DNA of 33,682 nucleotides. Source: a virus. This document shows, in pieces, positions 1,663 to 33,671 of the stretch (its first letter is position 1; each line of letters opens with the position of its first letter). The translations under genes were made by a program, and so were the position numbers. Below the pieces are notes generated by a model. That model did not search any database, had not been told where the DNA came from, and saw only the letters and a list, made by a program, of their open reading frames with translations. The DNA lies in the IMG/VR virus record IMGVR_UViG_3300036768_001194, positions 1 through 33,682 of that record, one strand, 5' to 3'.

Positions 1663-1766
1663 GGGCCAAAATTTTACCGCTTGCCCGCCGTGTAACGTGG
1701 GCGGCCCCGCGCGCGAATTTTTGCGAAATTGGCGAATCAATGGGTCACTGAAACGGGAGGAGGACG

Positions 1767-2477: not shown

Positions 2478-3751
2478 CTTTCCGCATCCCGAAGACGACC
2501 ATCTGGCAGCAGAAAACTTTGGAAAAGTTCGGCGATGTGTACGCGGAGACGGTAGTGCGGATGTGCCGCTGGGCACTGTCGCACATTGATTTCGGTGAGA
2601 TGGACGGCGAGGTGGACGCGCGGCGAGTGCTGAAGCTGCTGCCTAAGTGCGAGGAAGTCAATGGCGAATCACGCATCCTGCATGGTTGTCTGCGTGAAGA
2701 CCTGCGCAATGATGTTGCCGCGAAACTTGCGTCATACGTTCAGCTGATGAAGATGCACGAAAACCGGCAGCTGCGGTTCCGTCCTGGCTTTTGGGCAAGC
2801 CGCGTCAAGGAGCCGCGTCCATACGAGCAGCTGCTGAAGGAAGCGATCTTCCGGGAGTTCGAGACAAACGATGACTTCCTGGATTGGCAGGGCAATCTGC
2901 TCTCGCACGGATGGCTCTCGAAAGCGACGCGACCGCAACTCGGCGAGCAACTGCTTTTCCTGGGCACGTCCGGTGCGCGGCGGTGTCATGTGCTGGTGCG
3001 ACGCAAAGGTGGTGAGTTGCAGGCGGCAGCGGTTCTTTACATCGCTGCGAAAGGTGTGTTTCCAGGTGTCGTTATTCCGCCCGATGCAGGCTGGCTCGAT
3101 TTGTGCGATTGCAGACCCTACGCGATGCGCAGTCGGTCGGTGATGGTGCTGCCGCTTTTGACGCGAAGCGAATACGTTCGGAAATTTCTTGACGACGCGC
3201 TAGGTGGCATGGCGAGGCCTGCAGCTGCGAAACTCTATCGCAAACGGCGTAACGAGTACGAGAAGTGGACGTGGTTTCTCGCAGTGACGTTCCGCGTGCA
3301 GTGTCCGCAACCGTACGAAGCCGAGCAGTGGCTCGAAGTGGAGAGCACTTGGCTGCGTGGCAGTCCGCCGTCTGTTGCTCTGCGTTATCCCAACGGCGAG
3401 TGCATGGAAGTGTTCGCGCAGCTTTACGAAAATCACCTGAAACCTGCGATGTCCTGGCAGTTCGTGCACGCGCGGAACAAGCAGAAGCGAATGCGCGACA
3501 CGTTCGGTCTGCATCGTGTCGGCGCGGAATGGGAGCGGTGTTTGCACGTAACAGCGAGGTCAATTGTCGCAATTGCGCAGAGCAAACAGTGGGGCGTGCG
3601 GTGGGTTGGTGGCGCGCCGTTCCGGTTGAAACGACTGCCTGACTATGTGATGAGAAAAGCCAGACTTGCCGGGGTACCCGCCAGGTGGGTAAAAAAGACT
3701 AAGACGCGGGAGGTCAGTTGTGAGACGAACGGCGAACCGGCACCAGAGTAA
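2453..3751 (+). CDS. Nuclease-dead miniature TnpB/Cas12-like protein
   Basis: 432 residues. The layout matches TnpB and type V-U/Cas12 effectors. The N-terminus has a strand and a helix (LTVTFRIPKTTIWQQKTLEK, residues 6-25). At 229-280 there is a WED-like segment (SVMVLPLL, then DDALGGMARPAAAKLYRKRR and WTWFLAVTF). At 365-382 lies HVTARSIVAIAQSKQWGV, which resembles the helix before the RuvC-II Glu. At 390-423 comes FRLKRLPDYVMRKARLAGVP plus RWVKKTKTREVSC, the usual y-K-A-x-x-A-G-v-p segment leading to the zinc ribbon. The RuvC-I Asp is not in a recognisable G-I-D context, the RuvC-II Glu position reads RWVGG, and the chain stops after the first ribbon Cys, so RuvC-III is absent. It should bind guide RNA and DNA without cutting, like TldR or Cas12m proteins. 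The array starts about 240 bp downstream. Homology is by eye. Confidence 0.7.
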   Translation: MPDQMLTVTFRIPKTTIWQQKTLEKFGDVYAETVVRMCRWALSHIDFGEMDGEVDARRVLKLLPKCEEVNGESRILHGCLREDLRNDVAAKLASYVQLMKMHENRQLRFRPGFWASRVKEPRPYEQLLKEAIFREFETNDDFLDWQGNLLSHGWLSKATRPQLGEQLLFLGTSGARRCHVLVRRKGGELQAAAVLYIAAKGVFPGVVIPPDAGWLDLCDCRPYAMRSRSVMVLPLLTRSEYVRKFLDDALGGMARPAAAKLYRKRRNEYEKWTWFLAVTFRVQCPQPYEAEQWLEVESTWLRGSPPSVALRYPNGECMEVFAQLYENHLKPAMSWQFVHARNKQKRMRDTFGLHRVGAEWERCLHVTARSIVAIAQSKQWGVRWVGGAPFRLKRLPDYVMRKARLAGVPARWVKKTKTREVSCETNGEPAPE

Positions 3752-3960
3752 CGGCCTGGGTTGCAAACCTGTGCTGTCTATCCACAGGGGGCTGGGGGCT
3801 TCGTGTATGACCTCCGTGGCTTACGGGCCCTTGGCCCGAATCCCGGTAACGGGCCCACTAATCTCCCCACCAACGCGCCCAGGCCGTTACTCTGGTGCCG
3901 GAAGCTCTTGCGGCTCCTGTGTGCGGCCAGCGGCGTTCGTCTGTCCCCACCGTGACTGCG
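3737..3960 (+). ncRNA. Candidate tracrRNA-like structured RNA with anti-repeats
   Basis: Two perfect 24-bp inverted arms, at 3737-3760 and 3878-3901, enclose a 117-base loop. The left arm includes the stop codon of the TnpB/Cas12-like gene, recalling how omega RNAs overlap the end of tnpB. Three stretches are complementary to the conserved end of the downstream repeats. Bases 3776-3782 (GTCTATC) give 7 bp. Bases 3858-3872 give about 11 Watson-Crick pairs with one bulged C. Bases 3939-3960 can form about 16 pairs with the repeat, including three G-U wobbles and one bulged A. Position between effector and array fits a tracrRNA. No clear promoter was found, so it may be processed from the effector mRNA. 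Transcription is inferred. Confidence 0.5.
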
Positions 3961-3975
3961 TCGCTGGCCGTTTTT

Positions 3976-6062
3976 GTGCGCCTATTGCGGGAGTGGGAGA
4001 TAGACTTCTGCGAGCTTGTCCGCGAAACAGCGACTGCGATAGGTCACGGGCGAACTATGGTGGGAGATAGACCGATGGTTATGTCTTGAACGAGCAGTGG
4101 CCTTGCGAGTCTCAAGCGAACTGTGGTGGGAGATAGACCCGTATAGGCTTCCTGACATTTTGTCTATTAAAGAGGTCACGAGCGAACTATGGTGGGCGAT
4201 AGACTTGACGCAGAATTTAGACCCATCTGCGCGGCGCAATTGTGATAAACGAACTATGGTGGGAGATAGACCACTAGATAACTCAGTCACGGGCAAACTA
4301 TGGTGGGAGATAGACCCATAGTGCGTGGCCACAGCGAGCGCCCATCGCTCGGTCTCAAGTGAACCATGGTGGGAGATAGACTGACAGGTGTGCGTGATGC
4401 ACGTGTTCGCATGTTTGGTGACAAGCGAACTATGGTGGGAGATAGACGACTCGCCGATAATAACAGCCCAAAGCACCGATGCAGTCACAAGTGAACCATA
4501 GTGGGAGATAGACTTGCTGTTTGCATCGAGCCATGTGACCTTGAACGGGTCATAAGTCAACCACTGTGGGAGATAGGCCTCGGTGAGCATTTGCCATCCT
4601 TTTTGTGCGAATTGTGTGACAAACGAACTATGGTGGGAGATAGACTTCCCTTTCCCCTTGAACCCCTTTCCTTTCCGTCATAAGTGAACCATGGTGGGAG
4701 ATAGACACTCCAGTGCGGCCCAAAGCGCGGCGGTTTTCAGCGGTGATAAGGGAACTATGGTGGGAGATAGACCCAACCCGCCACTTGGCTCCTGATCACT
4801 GCCCAGATGCCACAAGCGAATCATAGTGGGAGATAGACCACGCGATAGTCGGAATGTAATTCCCAGCAGCGCTTCCGTCGCAGGTGAACCACGTGGCGGG
4901 CGATAGACGCTGGCAATGTCAATGGCTGCGGTGTGAGAGCCAGGATGGGATTTGTGCATGTGGGGATAAGGGAACTGTGGTGGGAGATAGACAACTAATC
5001 AAGATATTAAACCCAGTGGCAATCGCGGGTGACAAACAAATTATGGTGGGAGATAGACAGCGGGCGTTCAACGTGTTTTACCCCAAAATCATTGTGTGAC
5101 AAACAAACCATGGTGGGAGATAGACGACCGCTTGCAGGTGCCACCTCAAGCAAACTGTAAAAGCTACAAGCGCACTAAGGTGGGAGATAGGCAAAGGTAC
5201 ATCATAAAGGGAGCGTGCAGCTGAATTGCAACACTCACGTGGCGTCGCGGGCGATAGACATTGGCCTGCCTGCCTACACGATCGCCGCTGGACAGCATAG
5301 GTGGGAGATAGACCAGGCAGTTTTGACGGTCAGTGAAACAGCTGACTACGTCACAGGCCAAGCATGGTGGGAGATAGACTCACTGAAAATTGGCCGGCGC
5401 CGCGTAATCGTTTGGGAGTAACAAGCGAACTATGGTGGGGGATAGACCCGCTAGCAAAAACGCCCCGCGGCGGATGGCATATCGTAACAAGCGAACTATG
5501 GTGGGGGATAGACTGCTCGGTTGCGGGAATTCAACGTGGGAGATAGACGCTCCCGAAAACGCGGCTTGTTTTTGTGTGACTTGGTCACAAGCACACTGTA
5601 TTGGGAGATGGACGCGTGAGCGCTAGAATTGGGCACACACAATTGTCCCGTCGCAATCGAACTATGGTGGCAGATAGACAGCTAGAGCGTAAAAGCAGAC
5701 CAAGACGGGCGAGTTGTCACAGGTCAAGTATGGTGGGAGATAGACTTCGAGGCAGTTTGTGAGTTCGCGTCAGCAATTTCACGGTCACAAGCTAACCACG
5801 GTGGGAGATAGACCCAACGCCCCAACCGAGCCTGGGAGCGCAGCCGAGCGGTCATAAGTGAACCATAGTGGGAGATAGACGCTAACTAGCCAGCCCGGCC
5901 GTTCAGGCAACTCGCTGGTCACAATCGAACTATACTGGGCGATAGACGATGCCCCACTCGGACTGTGGTGGCAACCATCTATGCCTGCGGTGGACTGCAG
6001 TGGGAGATAGACAGGATGCGCTGATACGGTTCCTGGCAGGAAACCTGACGTGGGAGATAGAC
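3976..6062 (+). CRISPR. Degenerate CRISPR-like array, about 33 repeats
   Basis: Thirty-three copies end in a nearly invariant 13-base core, GTGGGAGATAGAC. Core ends are at 4005, 4072, 4138, 4204 and so on to 6012 and 6062. Full repeats are 30 bases, starting typically GTCACAAGCGAACTATG and joined to the core. Most spacings are 65-68 bp, which gives unique spacers of 35-38 bases and classic CRISPR geometry. Repeats 1, 20, 21, 25, 32 and 33 keep only the core. The upstream half of the repeat varies far more than in ordinary host arrays. Short spacers of about 14 bases follow repeats 5 and 24, and one spacer is 54 bases. If the transcript runs rightward, the invariant core would supply the crRNA 5' handle. 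No cas1 or cas2 is present. Spacer targets are unknown. Confidence 0.82.
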
Positions 6063-29843: not shown

Positions 29844-29871
29844 TTGACGCTAATCACTGACCATGTACAAT
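29844..29871 (+). promoter_or_regulatory. Sigma-70-like promoter before small array
   Basis: TTGACG at 29844-29849 and TACAAT at 29866-29871 are 16 bp apart, close to the sigma-70 consensus. It points to the three-repeat array at 30023 and the genes that follow. No convincing ORF lies between, so a non-coding leader of about 150 bases is expected. Confidence 0.6.
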
Positions 29872-30022
29872 GGCGATAGGCTATAGGGATTATGACACAT
29901 GGCAGCGGCGTTAGCTGCTCGGAATTGTCGCACAACGCCGCGCACGCTCGCTGCAAAGAAACAGACTGTATCTGGGACATCTAGGCGACATCGCTGCAAC
30001 TGTCCCCCAAGACGGCCTCAGG

Positions 30023-30186
30023 GGCACAGGCCAAGCATAGTGGGAGATAGACGGAACAATGTGCAACTAAGCAGGGAACTTATGCGGCGGGCACGGGCCA
30101 AGCATAGTGGGAGATAGACTCGTCCTGTGTCAATTTTCGTAAAAACTCTCGCCCTGGGCACAGGCTAAGCATAGTGGGAGATAGAC
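30023..30186 (+). CRISPR. Three-repeat CRISPR-like mini-array
   Basis: Three near-identical 30-base repeats at 30023-30052, 30090-30119 and 30157-30186 flank two 37-base spacers. All end in the same GTGGGAGATAGAC core as the large array 24 kb away. The upstream half (GGCACAGGCCAAGCATA type, with one or two differences) belongs to the same variant as repeats at 5350 and 5716 of the large array. A promoter-like sequence stands 150 bp upstream. Protospacers were not identified. The following gene begins 76 bp after the last repeat. It may be an RNA decoy or supply guides to the same protein. Confidence 0.75.
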
Positions 30187-30262
30187 GTCAGGTGCGTCCG
30201 CTTGGGCGTGATAGCGAGCGCGCGGATGCCAGGTCGCGGCAGCATAACGCGAGGACATTGCA

Positions 30263-30658
30263 ATGGCAGCGGTAAATCCAGCCGAAATTGCCGAGTGCGT
30301 GCGGAAGGCGGTAGAAACAGCGATGCCCTTTTACGACTGGCTGAATTCGGAGCTTAAGAAAGCGTCTTTAGTTGGCAGAGTTGACGATTGTACACATTGC
30401 CCGGTAGCGGTTTTTTTGAAGGATTTTCTTAGGAAATCGGGGTACGAACTGCCGTTCGTGTGTGTTACCAGCGACATCATTAGCGTCCGCGTTGGTGAAA
30501 CGGTTTGCGAAGTCCCAACACCGCCCTGGGTTACGCGGTTCGAAACCATGTTGCTGGAGCAGTGTGAACGCGATCACAGGCAGTGGGCTAGACCACAGAC
30601 GGCGATTGACGTGCTGGAGCGAAGCCTACTACGGTGCGACTTTGCGGCGAGGGACTAG
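30263..30658 (+). CDS. CxxCP paralogue A, unknown function
   Basis: A 131-residue protein. Its central block, VDDCTHCPVAVFLKDFLRKS with GYELPFVCVTSDIISVRVGE, is followed by a P-P-W-V-T-R-F-E helix. The gene at 30681 encodes the same architecture: DCRYCPTSLFLTWFLKKQGY then IVIDDAIVLWVDG and PAWVWRFE. So these are tandem paralogues. The C-x-x-C-P plus F-L-x-x-F-L-x-K-x-G-Y signature is not one I know. They sit next to the mini-array, so they could be anti-defence or regulatory proteins. AGGA lies 11 bases upstream of the start. Confidence 0.6.
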   Translation: MAAVNPAEIAECVRKAVETAMPFYDWLNSELKKASLVGRVDDCTHCPVAVFLKDFLRKSGYELPFVCVTSDIISVRVGETVCEVPTPPWVTRFETMLLEQCERDHRQWARPQTAIDVLERSLLRCDFAARD

Positions 30659-30680: not shown

Positions 30681-31082
30681 ATGGGCACCAGCGATGAGAA
30701 AGTGAGAGAGGCAGCCAAACTTGTGCTCGATGCTCTTAAGTCACCTGCGCCCTTACGTGCCTGGCTAAAGTCAGACGCCTTCAATGAAGGATGGTTACTG
30801 ACCCCAAGAGATTGTCGCTATTGTCCGACCTCACTTTTTCTTACTTGGTTTCTTAAGAAACAGGGATACGAATCGGCTAAGGCTATTGTAATAGACGACG
30901 CGATAGTTCTCTGGGTTGACGGCGTAAAGCAGCTACTAACAGCACCAGCGTGGGTTTGGAGGTTTGAGAAGCGCTTACAAAATCACCCTAATTGCACGAG
31001 CTACAGACCTATTATGCCGCTAACAGCAGTAAAGGAGCTCGAATTCGCCTGTTCGGAATGTGGCATCCGAATGAAGGAGTAG
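30681..31082 (+). CDS. CxxCP paralogue B, unknown function
   Basis: A 133-residue protein paralogous to the one at 30263. It adds an N-terminal helix (SDEKVREAAKLVLDALKSPA) and a C-terminal second Cys pair (LEFACSECGIRMKE). An ATG at 30681 with AGGAAA upstream is preferred over a longer frame that would overlap paralogue A. No domain of known function is recognised. It is followed after four bases by another Cys-containing gene. Confidence 0.6.
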   Translation: MGTSDEKVREAAKLVLDALKSPAPLRAWLKSDAFNEGWLLTPRDCRYCPTSLFLTWFLKKQGYESAKAIVIDDAIVLWVDGVKQLLTAPAWVWRFEKRLQNHPNCTSYRPIMPLTAVKELEFACSECGIRMKE

Positions 31083-31086
31083 TGTC

Positions 31087-31293
31087 ATGCGGCTAACGCG
31101 CAAAATGCGATGTATCGTCTGCCGATGCCGACCGCCGATTATGCCGGACGGTGGGCGCATCATTGACGGAACGCGAGTCGCAGACCAGCTCATTCCGAAG
31201 CGATGGCACGGCAAATGGGTCTGCTCTAAGGCGTGCTATCGCAAGCTGCTGCCCAGGTGGTACCTGGAAAACAAGCAGAATGTGCTGCCGTGA
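31087..31293 (+). CDS. Small zinc-finger protein
   Basis: A 68-residue basic protein with AAGGAG ten bases upstream. Metal ligands are MRCIVCRCRP near the start and KWVCSKACYRKLLPRWYLEN near the end, a four-Cys arrangement like a treble clef. It lies in the same rightward operon as the paralogues and the exonuclease. Its function is unknown. Confidence 0.6.
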   Translation: MRLTRKMRCIVCRCRPPIMPDGGRIIDGTRVADQLIPKRWHGKWVCSKACYRKLLPRWYLENKQNVLP

Positions 31294-31340
31294 TGCGTGG
31301 ACTAGGATGCACGTGCGCAACGGGATTTCAGGGAGTGAAC

Positions 31341-32285
31341 ATGTCGTCAGCGATTGAGGTGGCCAATAAACTCGGCGACCGTACAACCTACCTCGGTGCC
31401 AGCGAGGTGCCGATTGTCATGGGGAGTTTGTATCTGCCCCAGTTTTGCGTAACACGTTGGCATTTGTGGGCCAGCAAGGTCGGCCATCCCGACTATCAGC
31501 CCCGCGATGGCGGGTTGGAGGCGGCCCTGGGCAGCGCGCTCGAACGCGGGTTGGTTGAGTTCGCACGACAGAAGTGGACGGTTTACACTGACAGCTCGCT
31601 GACAGAGTTGAGAATCGCCGACACGCCCATCATCGCGCACCTGGACGCGGTTGGTCAGGAAGGCGACGAGCTGTTCCCGATTGAGTGCAAGACGAGCGGG
31701 CTGTTCGGGAATAAGGCAGTTGGCTGGTCTCCTGACGACCTGCCCTGGCACGTGTACCACCAGGTTCAGACGCAGATTGCAGCGTTGGGATCGAGGCGAG
31801 CCATTGTCGTTGCGCTCCTTGGTGGGTTTGGTGCGGTGTATCACGAGTACGAGGTGTACCGCGACGATGCGGTGATCGAAGAAATCCTTGCGAAATCACG
31901 GGAGTTTTGGAAACACGTTGAAACCAACACGCCGCCTGAAGAGCAGCCGTTTGACGTGAACCAGGCAGTGAGAGTCGAGCGGCGCGGGGCGATTGAATTG
32001 CCCGAAGATTTGCTGCCCGTTTTGCAAACGTATCAGCAAGCGAAGGAAGCCATATCGCAGTACGAAGAGCAAGCTGACCAGGCAAGGGTTGAGATACTGA
32101 AGGCGTTGGGTAACGCAGAGCGTGGCCACGTCCTTGGTTGGACGGTGGTTGCCAAGCGTGTTACTCAGCACCGCGTTGATACGAAGCGTTTGCAGGTGGA
32201 GTTTCCGCAGACGTATCAGAAGTGTCTCGAAGTGTCTGAATACCTGCGATTGCAAGTAAAACCGCCGCGGGAGGAGAAGCAATGA
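31341..32285 (+). CDS. YqaJ-like viral recombinase exonuclease
   Basis: A 314-residue protein of the YqaJ/lambda exonuclease (PD-(D/E)XK) group. The active site is Asp102 (PIIAHLDAVG), Glu115 and Lys117 (LFPIECKTSG), preceded by Glu69 (GSALERGLVEFA) and followed by VYHQVQTQIAALGSRR. Such enzymes resect 5' ends so an annealing protein can pair strands. The next gene, overlapping by four bases (ATGA), is the probable annealing partner. The start at 31341 has a GGGAG site. A C-terminal helical part after about 220 includes coiled-coil stretches (YQQAKEAISQYEEQADQARV). Confidence 0.88.
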   Translation: MSSAIEVANKLGDRTTYLGASEVPIVMGSLYLPQFCVTRWHLWASKVGHPDYQPRDGGLEAALGSALERGLVEFARQKWTVYTDSSLTELRIADTPIIAHLDAVGQEGDELFPIECKTSGLFGNKAVGWSPDDLPWHVYHQVQTQIAALGSRRAIVVALLGGFGAVYHEYEVYRDDAVIEEILAKSREFWKHVETNTPPEEQPFDVNQAVRVERRGAIELPEDLLPVLQTYQQAKEAISQYEEQADQARVEILKALGNAERGHVLGWTVVAKRVTQHRVDTKRLQVEFPQTYQKCLEVSEYLRLQVKPPREEKQ

Positions 32286-33543: not shown

Positions 33544-33671
33544 GAGGAAGAAGGATGAAGGAGGAAGGATGAAGGAGGAAGGATGAGGACGAAGGATGTC
33601 TTTGCTGCGCACCTAGAAGTGAAGAAATAACATCCTTCATCCTCGTCCTTCATCCTTCATCCTACATCCTT
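33544..33671. repeat. GGA-rich short repeats with inverted copy
   Basis: Bases 33544-33599 contain about ten GGA triplets in AAGGATGAAGGAGG-type units. From 33628 to 33671 the opposite-strand version (CATCCTTCATCCT units) appears, so the two can fold into an imperfect stem of about thirty base pairs around a 28-base loop. Such satellite repeats are common in bacterial intergenic DNA. They also resemble the GGA arrays of CsrB-type RNA sponges. The 150 bases between the CsrA-like stop and this repeat hold no gene that I can support. Confidence 0.6.

Follow-up and report, generated by a model that had tools for sequence, protein, structure and literature searches.

Two arrays with a common repeat core

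The window, the whole stretch of DNA that we analyzed, is a 33.7-kb virus record from a phage that carries terminase, portal, capsid, protease, and tail genes and has a genome of ~35 kb. We compared it with three relatives from metagenome 3300035183 (L010, L011, and L012) and with L015 (IMG/VR 3300028761_000006), whose TerL is 97% identical. In L010, the window end is joined to the window start across ~1.1 kb, indicating a circular or permuted genome and a record that is ~1.1 kb short. Tandem repeats of 7 nt (AGGATGA, then CATCCTT) lie near the record end at 33545-33671 and possibly caused the assembly break. A TerL search of genome contigs found no host, and Rfam and tRNA scans were empty.

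A mini-array occupies positions 30023-30186 on the + strand. It contains three 30-nt repeats that read GGCACAGGCCAAGCATAGTGGGAGATAGAC, with one or two differences between copies: R1 (30023-30052), R2 (30090-30119), and R3, the last (30157-30186). The start-to-start period is 67, and the repeats are separated by two unique 37-nt spacers, S1 (30053-30089) and S2 (30120-30156). The repeats are real. CRISPR arrays are recognized as direct repeats of ~23-47 nt with unique spacers of similar length, and the 30-nt repeats and 37-nt spacers of the mini-array have this layout. We considered the sequence 3′ of R3 as a third spacer and ruled this out, since this trailer (30187-30262, + strand) aligns with the conserved L015 flank from 17177 onwards.

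Directly 3′ of the mini-array are two small genes (30263-30658 and 30681-31082) of similar size and apparently similar sequence, neither with a PHROG match. They are followed at 31233-32285 by a gene for a RecE-like recombination exonuclease (PHROG 434, E 2.5e-37), an enzyme with whose help phages could exchange arrays by recombination.

A coding explanation of the repeats, which the preliminary description had named as a refutation, was rejected. A 72-amino acid ORF (29899-30117) crosses them but falls mostly within a stretch that is absent from L015, and no conserved ORF accounts for the repeats.

The main array (3993-6062, + strand) is CRISPR-like and comprises ~33 units, with a 30-nt repeat, GTCACAAGCGAACTATGGTGGGAGATAGAC, and spacers that are usually 36-37 nt. 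The repeats and 37-nt spacers of the mini-array are in register with it. We found no promoter for the main array itself. The distance of 24 kb first given between the arrays is correct for the linear record; on the circular map that follows from the L010 join, however, both arrays are on the same strand and the mini-array precedes the main array by ~8.6 kb.

The two arrays have in common the last 13 nt at the 3′ end of the repeat, GTGGGAGATAGAC, as had been noted for the three near-identical mini-array repeats. With up to two mismatches, this core occurs 37 times in the window, versus 0.3 times expected from dinucleotide shuffles, and every occurrence except one chance-like site (22937) is within the two arrays. 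When 71 repeats from this phage and the relatives are compared, the 5′ half varies and the 3′ core is almost constant, although the repeats were chosen by core match. Some units combine the core with an unrelated 5′ half (L010:9128, L012:602, and window positions 3993, 5301, 5536, 6000, and 6050); that array units can retain only these 13 nt suggests that the core is the essential part. The proposed link between the mini-array and the GGCCAAGC variant stands in part. Five of the 71 repeats, all from main arrays of the phage and relatives, carry the variant and all three mini-array repeats resemble it, but the latter read ATAG where the main-array repeats have ATGG or similar.

A candidate tracrRNA and effector beside the main array

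Upstream of the main array on the + strand are genes for P0002 (1767-2477; 236 amino acids), with a weakly HTH/repressor-like C-terminal part (best matches E 0.004-0.035), and for P0001 (2453-3751), a 432-amino acid orphan protein that is a candidate RNA-guided effector. P0001 is under purifying selection (pN/pS 0.04). Between the P0001 gene and the array is an intergenic region of ~240 nt (conserved at 3752-3980, + strand). Over the first 150 nt of this region, identity to L010 is 97%, versus a synonymous-site divergence of 31% in the adjoining P0001 gene. Together with the low pN/pS of P0001, this points to a functional non-coding sequence, a candidate tracrRNA, beside a functional protein.

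Near its 3′ end, this region is predicted from sequence and folds to form a terminator-like hairpin (3924-3975, + strand), with a 12-bp stem (3924-3935 paired with 3959-3970) followed by U5. The loop contains GTCTGTCCCCAC (3939-3950, + strand), a candidate anti-repeat that is complementary to the 13-nt core of both arrays. Pairing extends over 12 of 13 positions in this phage and all 13 in L010 if G-U wobbles are counted. Outside the arrays, this is the strongest + strand site for the core, and when the region was dinucleotide-shuffled 400 times, only 0-1 of the shuffles matched its strength for the core. An anti-repeat RNA encoded near effector and array is the mark of tracrRNA-dependent class 2 systems and, at the level of sequence, 3939-3950 looks like such an anti-repeat. 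As the shared core is exactly the part of the repeat that pairs with the anti-repeat encoded beside the main array, the arrays appear to share a functional handle and probably cooperate, as the preliminary description had suggested.

A perfect 24-nt inverted repeat (3737-3760 and 3878-3901) also reaches from the end of P0001 into the intergenic RNA region. It surrounds two stretches that are partly complementary to the repeat, GTCTATCCAC near 3776 and ATCTCCCCACC near 3861.

The match between the mini-array and the phage's own components bears on whether a host CRISPR effector uses the mini-array. In that case, the two spacers would direct host Cas proteins at competing phages, as for the archaeal viruses SPV1 and SPV2, whose mini-arrays likewise have two spacers, a promoter-containing leader, and an intergenic position, and differ in spacers between related viruses (PMC6858448). 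The SPV mini-arrays, however, use host repeats and host Cas proteins (PMC6858448). In the present phage, the mini-array repeats correspond to its own long array and anti-repeat, and it encodes a tracr-like RNA and a candidate effector itself, so that no host system is needed. Moreover, no host with this repeat is known, and the scan, which covered plasmids, gave no meaningful match to the main array. We regard use by a host effector as unlikely.

P0001 had no significant match in Pfam, PHROGs, PADLOC, or PDB sequences. Its best NCBIfam match, Cas12f2, was not significant (E=0.12), and a TnpB profile built from 11 sequences scored it no better than shuffled sequence. An AlphaFold model made from two near-identical sequences was uninformative (pLDDT 36). 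By eye, the protein appears to have a Cas12-like layout, in which we did not see a complete RuvC catalytic motif set or a zinc ribbon. Genome contigs contained no relatives of P0001, and IMG/VR gave only copies from the same metagenome. Two weak hits were rejected: MW202665 (E=2), which is annotated as something else, and a Streptomyces plasmid (E=0.4), in which the match falls in a region with a 1645-codon open frame and no sign of a Cas protein. We also matched no Cas1 or Cas2 family, the adaptation proteins whose genes are linked to CRISPR arrays, among the ORFs scanned with Pfam, PHROGs, and PADLOC, which were part of the ORFs in a record that may be ~1.1 kb short. P0001 is a candidate effector by virtue of its adjacency to the array, its conservation, and the anti-repeat; adjacency is not proof of binding to these RNAs.

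Among known systems, type V-F (Cas12f) and other tracrRNA-dependent class 2 systems also have a small effector and encode an anti-repeat RNA between effector gene and array; P0001 differs in its non-significant Cas12f2 profile match and in the lack, by eye, of complete RuvC motifs and a zinc ribbon. Cas12m (subtype V-M) resembles P0001 as a small single protein, carried by mobile elements and suspected of cleavage-free DNA binding (PMC10442227, PMC11013384, PMC11656645). Cas12m2 is reported to function with a single crRNA (PMC10442227, PMC11013384, PMC11656645), whereas here an anti-repeat is present and P0001 has no detectable sequence similarity to Cas12.

Promoter, ancestry, and spacers of the mini-array

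The promoter first noted upstream of the mini-array is a sigma-70-like sequence, TTGACG-N16-TACAAT (29844-29871, + strand), with a 10/12 match. Its count alone is not significant (0.7 expected per shuffle); it is, however, kept in L015 as TTGACG-N16-TATAAT, in a segment that is ~93% identical to the window over 55 nt. The leader (29878-30022, + strand) extends from a predicted transcript start at ~29878 to R1 and has no detectable anti-repeat, its best duplex with the repeat ranking only ~800-2800 of 13462 sites. The mini-array would therefore depend in trans on the anti-repeat RNA encoded beside the main array. Complementarity of S1 and S2 to the leader was at control level.

At the site of the mini-array, L015 has one decayed repeat, AAGCCTAGCGGGTGATAGAC, which matches the mini-array repeat at 17 of 20 positions. 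None of 20000 shuffles reached this score; elsewhere in the locus, the best site scored 13/20. The core of the decayed repeat is degenerate (GCGGGTGATAGAC), and both S1 and S2 are absent from L015. As the same promoter and one decayed repeat are found at the same L015 site, comparison of the two sequences indicates that the mini-array locus predates the split from L015: the locus is old and its spacers are not common to L015. This disagrees with the earlier suggestion that the mini-array is a newer import.

The L015 site, with its promoter and single decayed repeat, resembles a solitary repeat unit. RNA anti-CRISPRs (Racrs) are phage-encoded repeat mimics with a promoter nearby (PMC10651486), and a Racr at this locus would mimic host crRNA repeats and titrate host Cas proteins. 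Yet a Racr is a solitary repeat, and the mini-array has three repeats with two full-length spacers; its repeats belong to an array, and match an anti-repeat, that the phage itself owns, and the L015 repeat is degenerate in the very core. These differences from the described Racrs (PMC10651486) make such a function less likely, and we assign it little probability.

L010, L011, and L012 keep the main array but differ in most of its spacers, with a few in common, these in the same order, and a conserved downstream end. Such turnover is typical of CRISPR arrays and was seen for the main array only; it occurs between relatives whose array flanks are ~92-94% identical. One of the 62 full-length spacers of the family, from L012 (L012:193-228), matches a related phage. 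Its match is to window positions 1705-1740 (+ strand), an intergenic site just upstream of P0002, at 30 of 36 positions; 248 shuffled spacers reached at most 25/37. The matched site is present in this phage and L010 and falls outside the L012 contig. An exact search for a better target of this spacer found only the spacer itself, and no other spacer of the set exceeded the control level. The match could reflect either an attack on the guide system of a rival or autoregulation in L012, and through this main-array spacer it makes an inter-virus function plausible.

Searches with S1 and S2, as the preliminary description had proposed, gave no recognizable target in phages or in 18-nt exact scans of IMG/VR. 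A candidate S1 target in L023 (IMG/VR) was rejected as chance, as only the queried 18 nt match.

The spacer data also weigh on a role in gene regulation, in which fixed guides, like those of TldR, would pair partially with a phage or host promoter and adjust its activity. The mini-array has its own promoter and a location separate from the main array, and the L012 spacer, with its 6 mismatches, matches a site immediately upstream of P0002-P0001. With TldR, too, a phage gene encodes a suspected nuclease-dead RNA-guided regulator, but one that regulates flagellin (PMC13418256), whereas the present phage has a multi-spacer array that shows turnover. Neither S1 nor S2 fits the window better than shuffled spacers do, and they are not kept in L015, though regulatory guides should be conserved. 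We therefore consider regulation by these spacers improbable.

Finally, the repeats might not be RNA-guided elements, but DNA sites (iterons, partition or packaging sites) to which a protein such as P0002 or P0001 binds. Near-regular spacing, the HTH-like P0002 beside the main array, and the lack of a recognized cas gene are consistent with binding sites of this kind. They do not readily explain why the 30-nt repeats are asymmetric and the 36-37-nt spacers non-conserved, or why spacers turn over between relatives with such similar flanks. Nor do they readily account for an anti-repeat conserved on a likely RNA or for the heterologous match of the L012 spacer. This explanation seems to us very improbable.

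A possible second crRNA locus

On balance, we lean towards the view that the phage encodes a compact, class-2-like system for binding or silencing DNA and that the mini-array serves it as a second crRNA locus. The array anatomy, the conserved promoter and anti-repeat complementarity, purifying selection on P0001, spacer turnover, and one heterologous target match are supported by our analysis of the sequences. Under this model, the promoter at 29844 would drive independent expression of a leader-R1-S1-R2-S2-R3 transcript, in which every repeat would pair through its 13-nt core with the anti-repeat of a tracrRNA-like RNA from 3752-3980. The transcript would be processed, and P0001 might bind the core/anti-repeat duplex. 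S1 and S2 could then guide the P0001 complex to DNA. Since P0001 is small and shows neither a complete RuvC motif set nor a zinc ribbon by eye, DNA binding and transcriptional silencing seem to us more likely than cleavage. The likely targets would be rival related phages; alternatively, the system may regulate a gene of the phage itself or of its host.

A broader proposal, which we regard as possible but doubtful, is that P0001 is the founding member of a new family of very small, tracrRNA-dependent, nuclease-lacking RNA-guided effectors that are confined to small phages. The protein would serve two arrays that differ in role: a large, exchanging one directed against rivals, and the mini-array, which is expressed separately. 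Phages would exchange spacers by recombination rather than by Cas1-Cas2.

Fully phage-encoded CRISPR systems have mostly been described in jumbo phages (PMC11656645). If our model is correct, the ~33-unit array, the tracr-like RNA, the unrecognized candidate effector, and the second array with its own promoter would together make up an unusually small RNA-guided system in a phage of ~35 kb, and P0001 would be a candidate for a compact programmable DNA-binding protein. The family would also offer a testable case of phages that aim guide RNAs at each other, including at each other's guide system.
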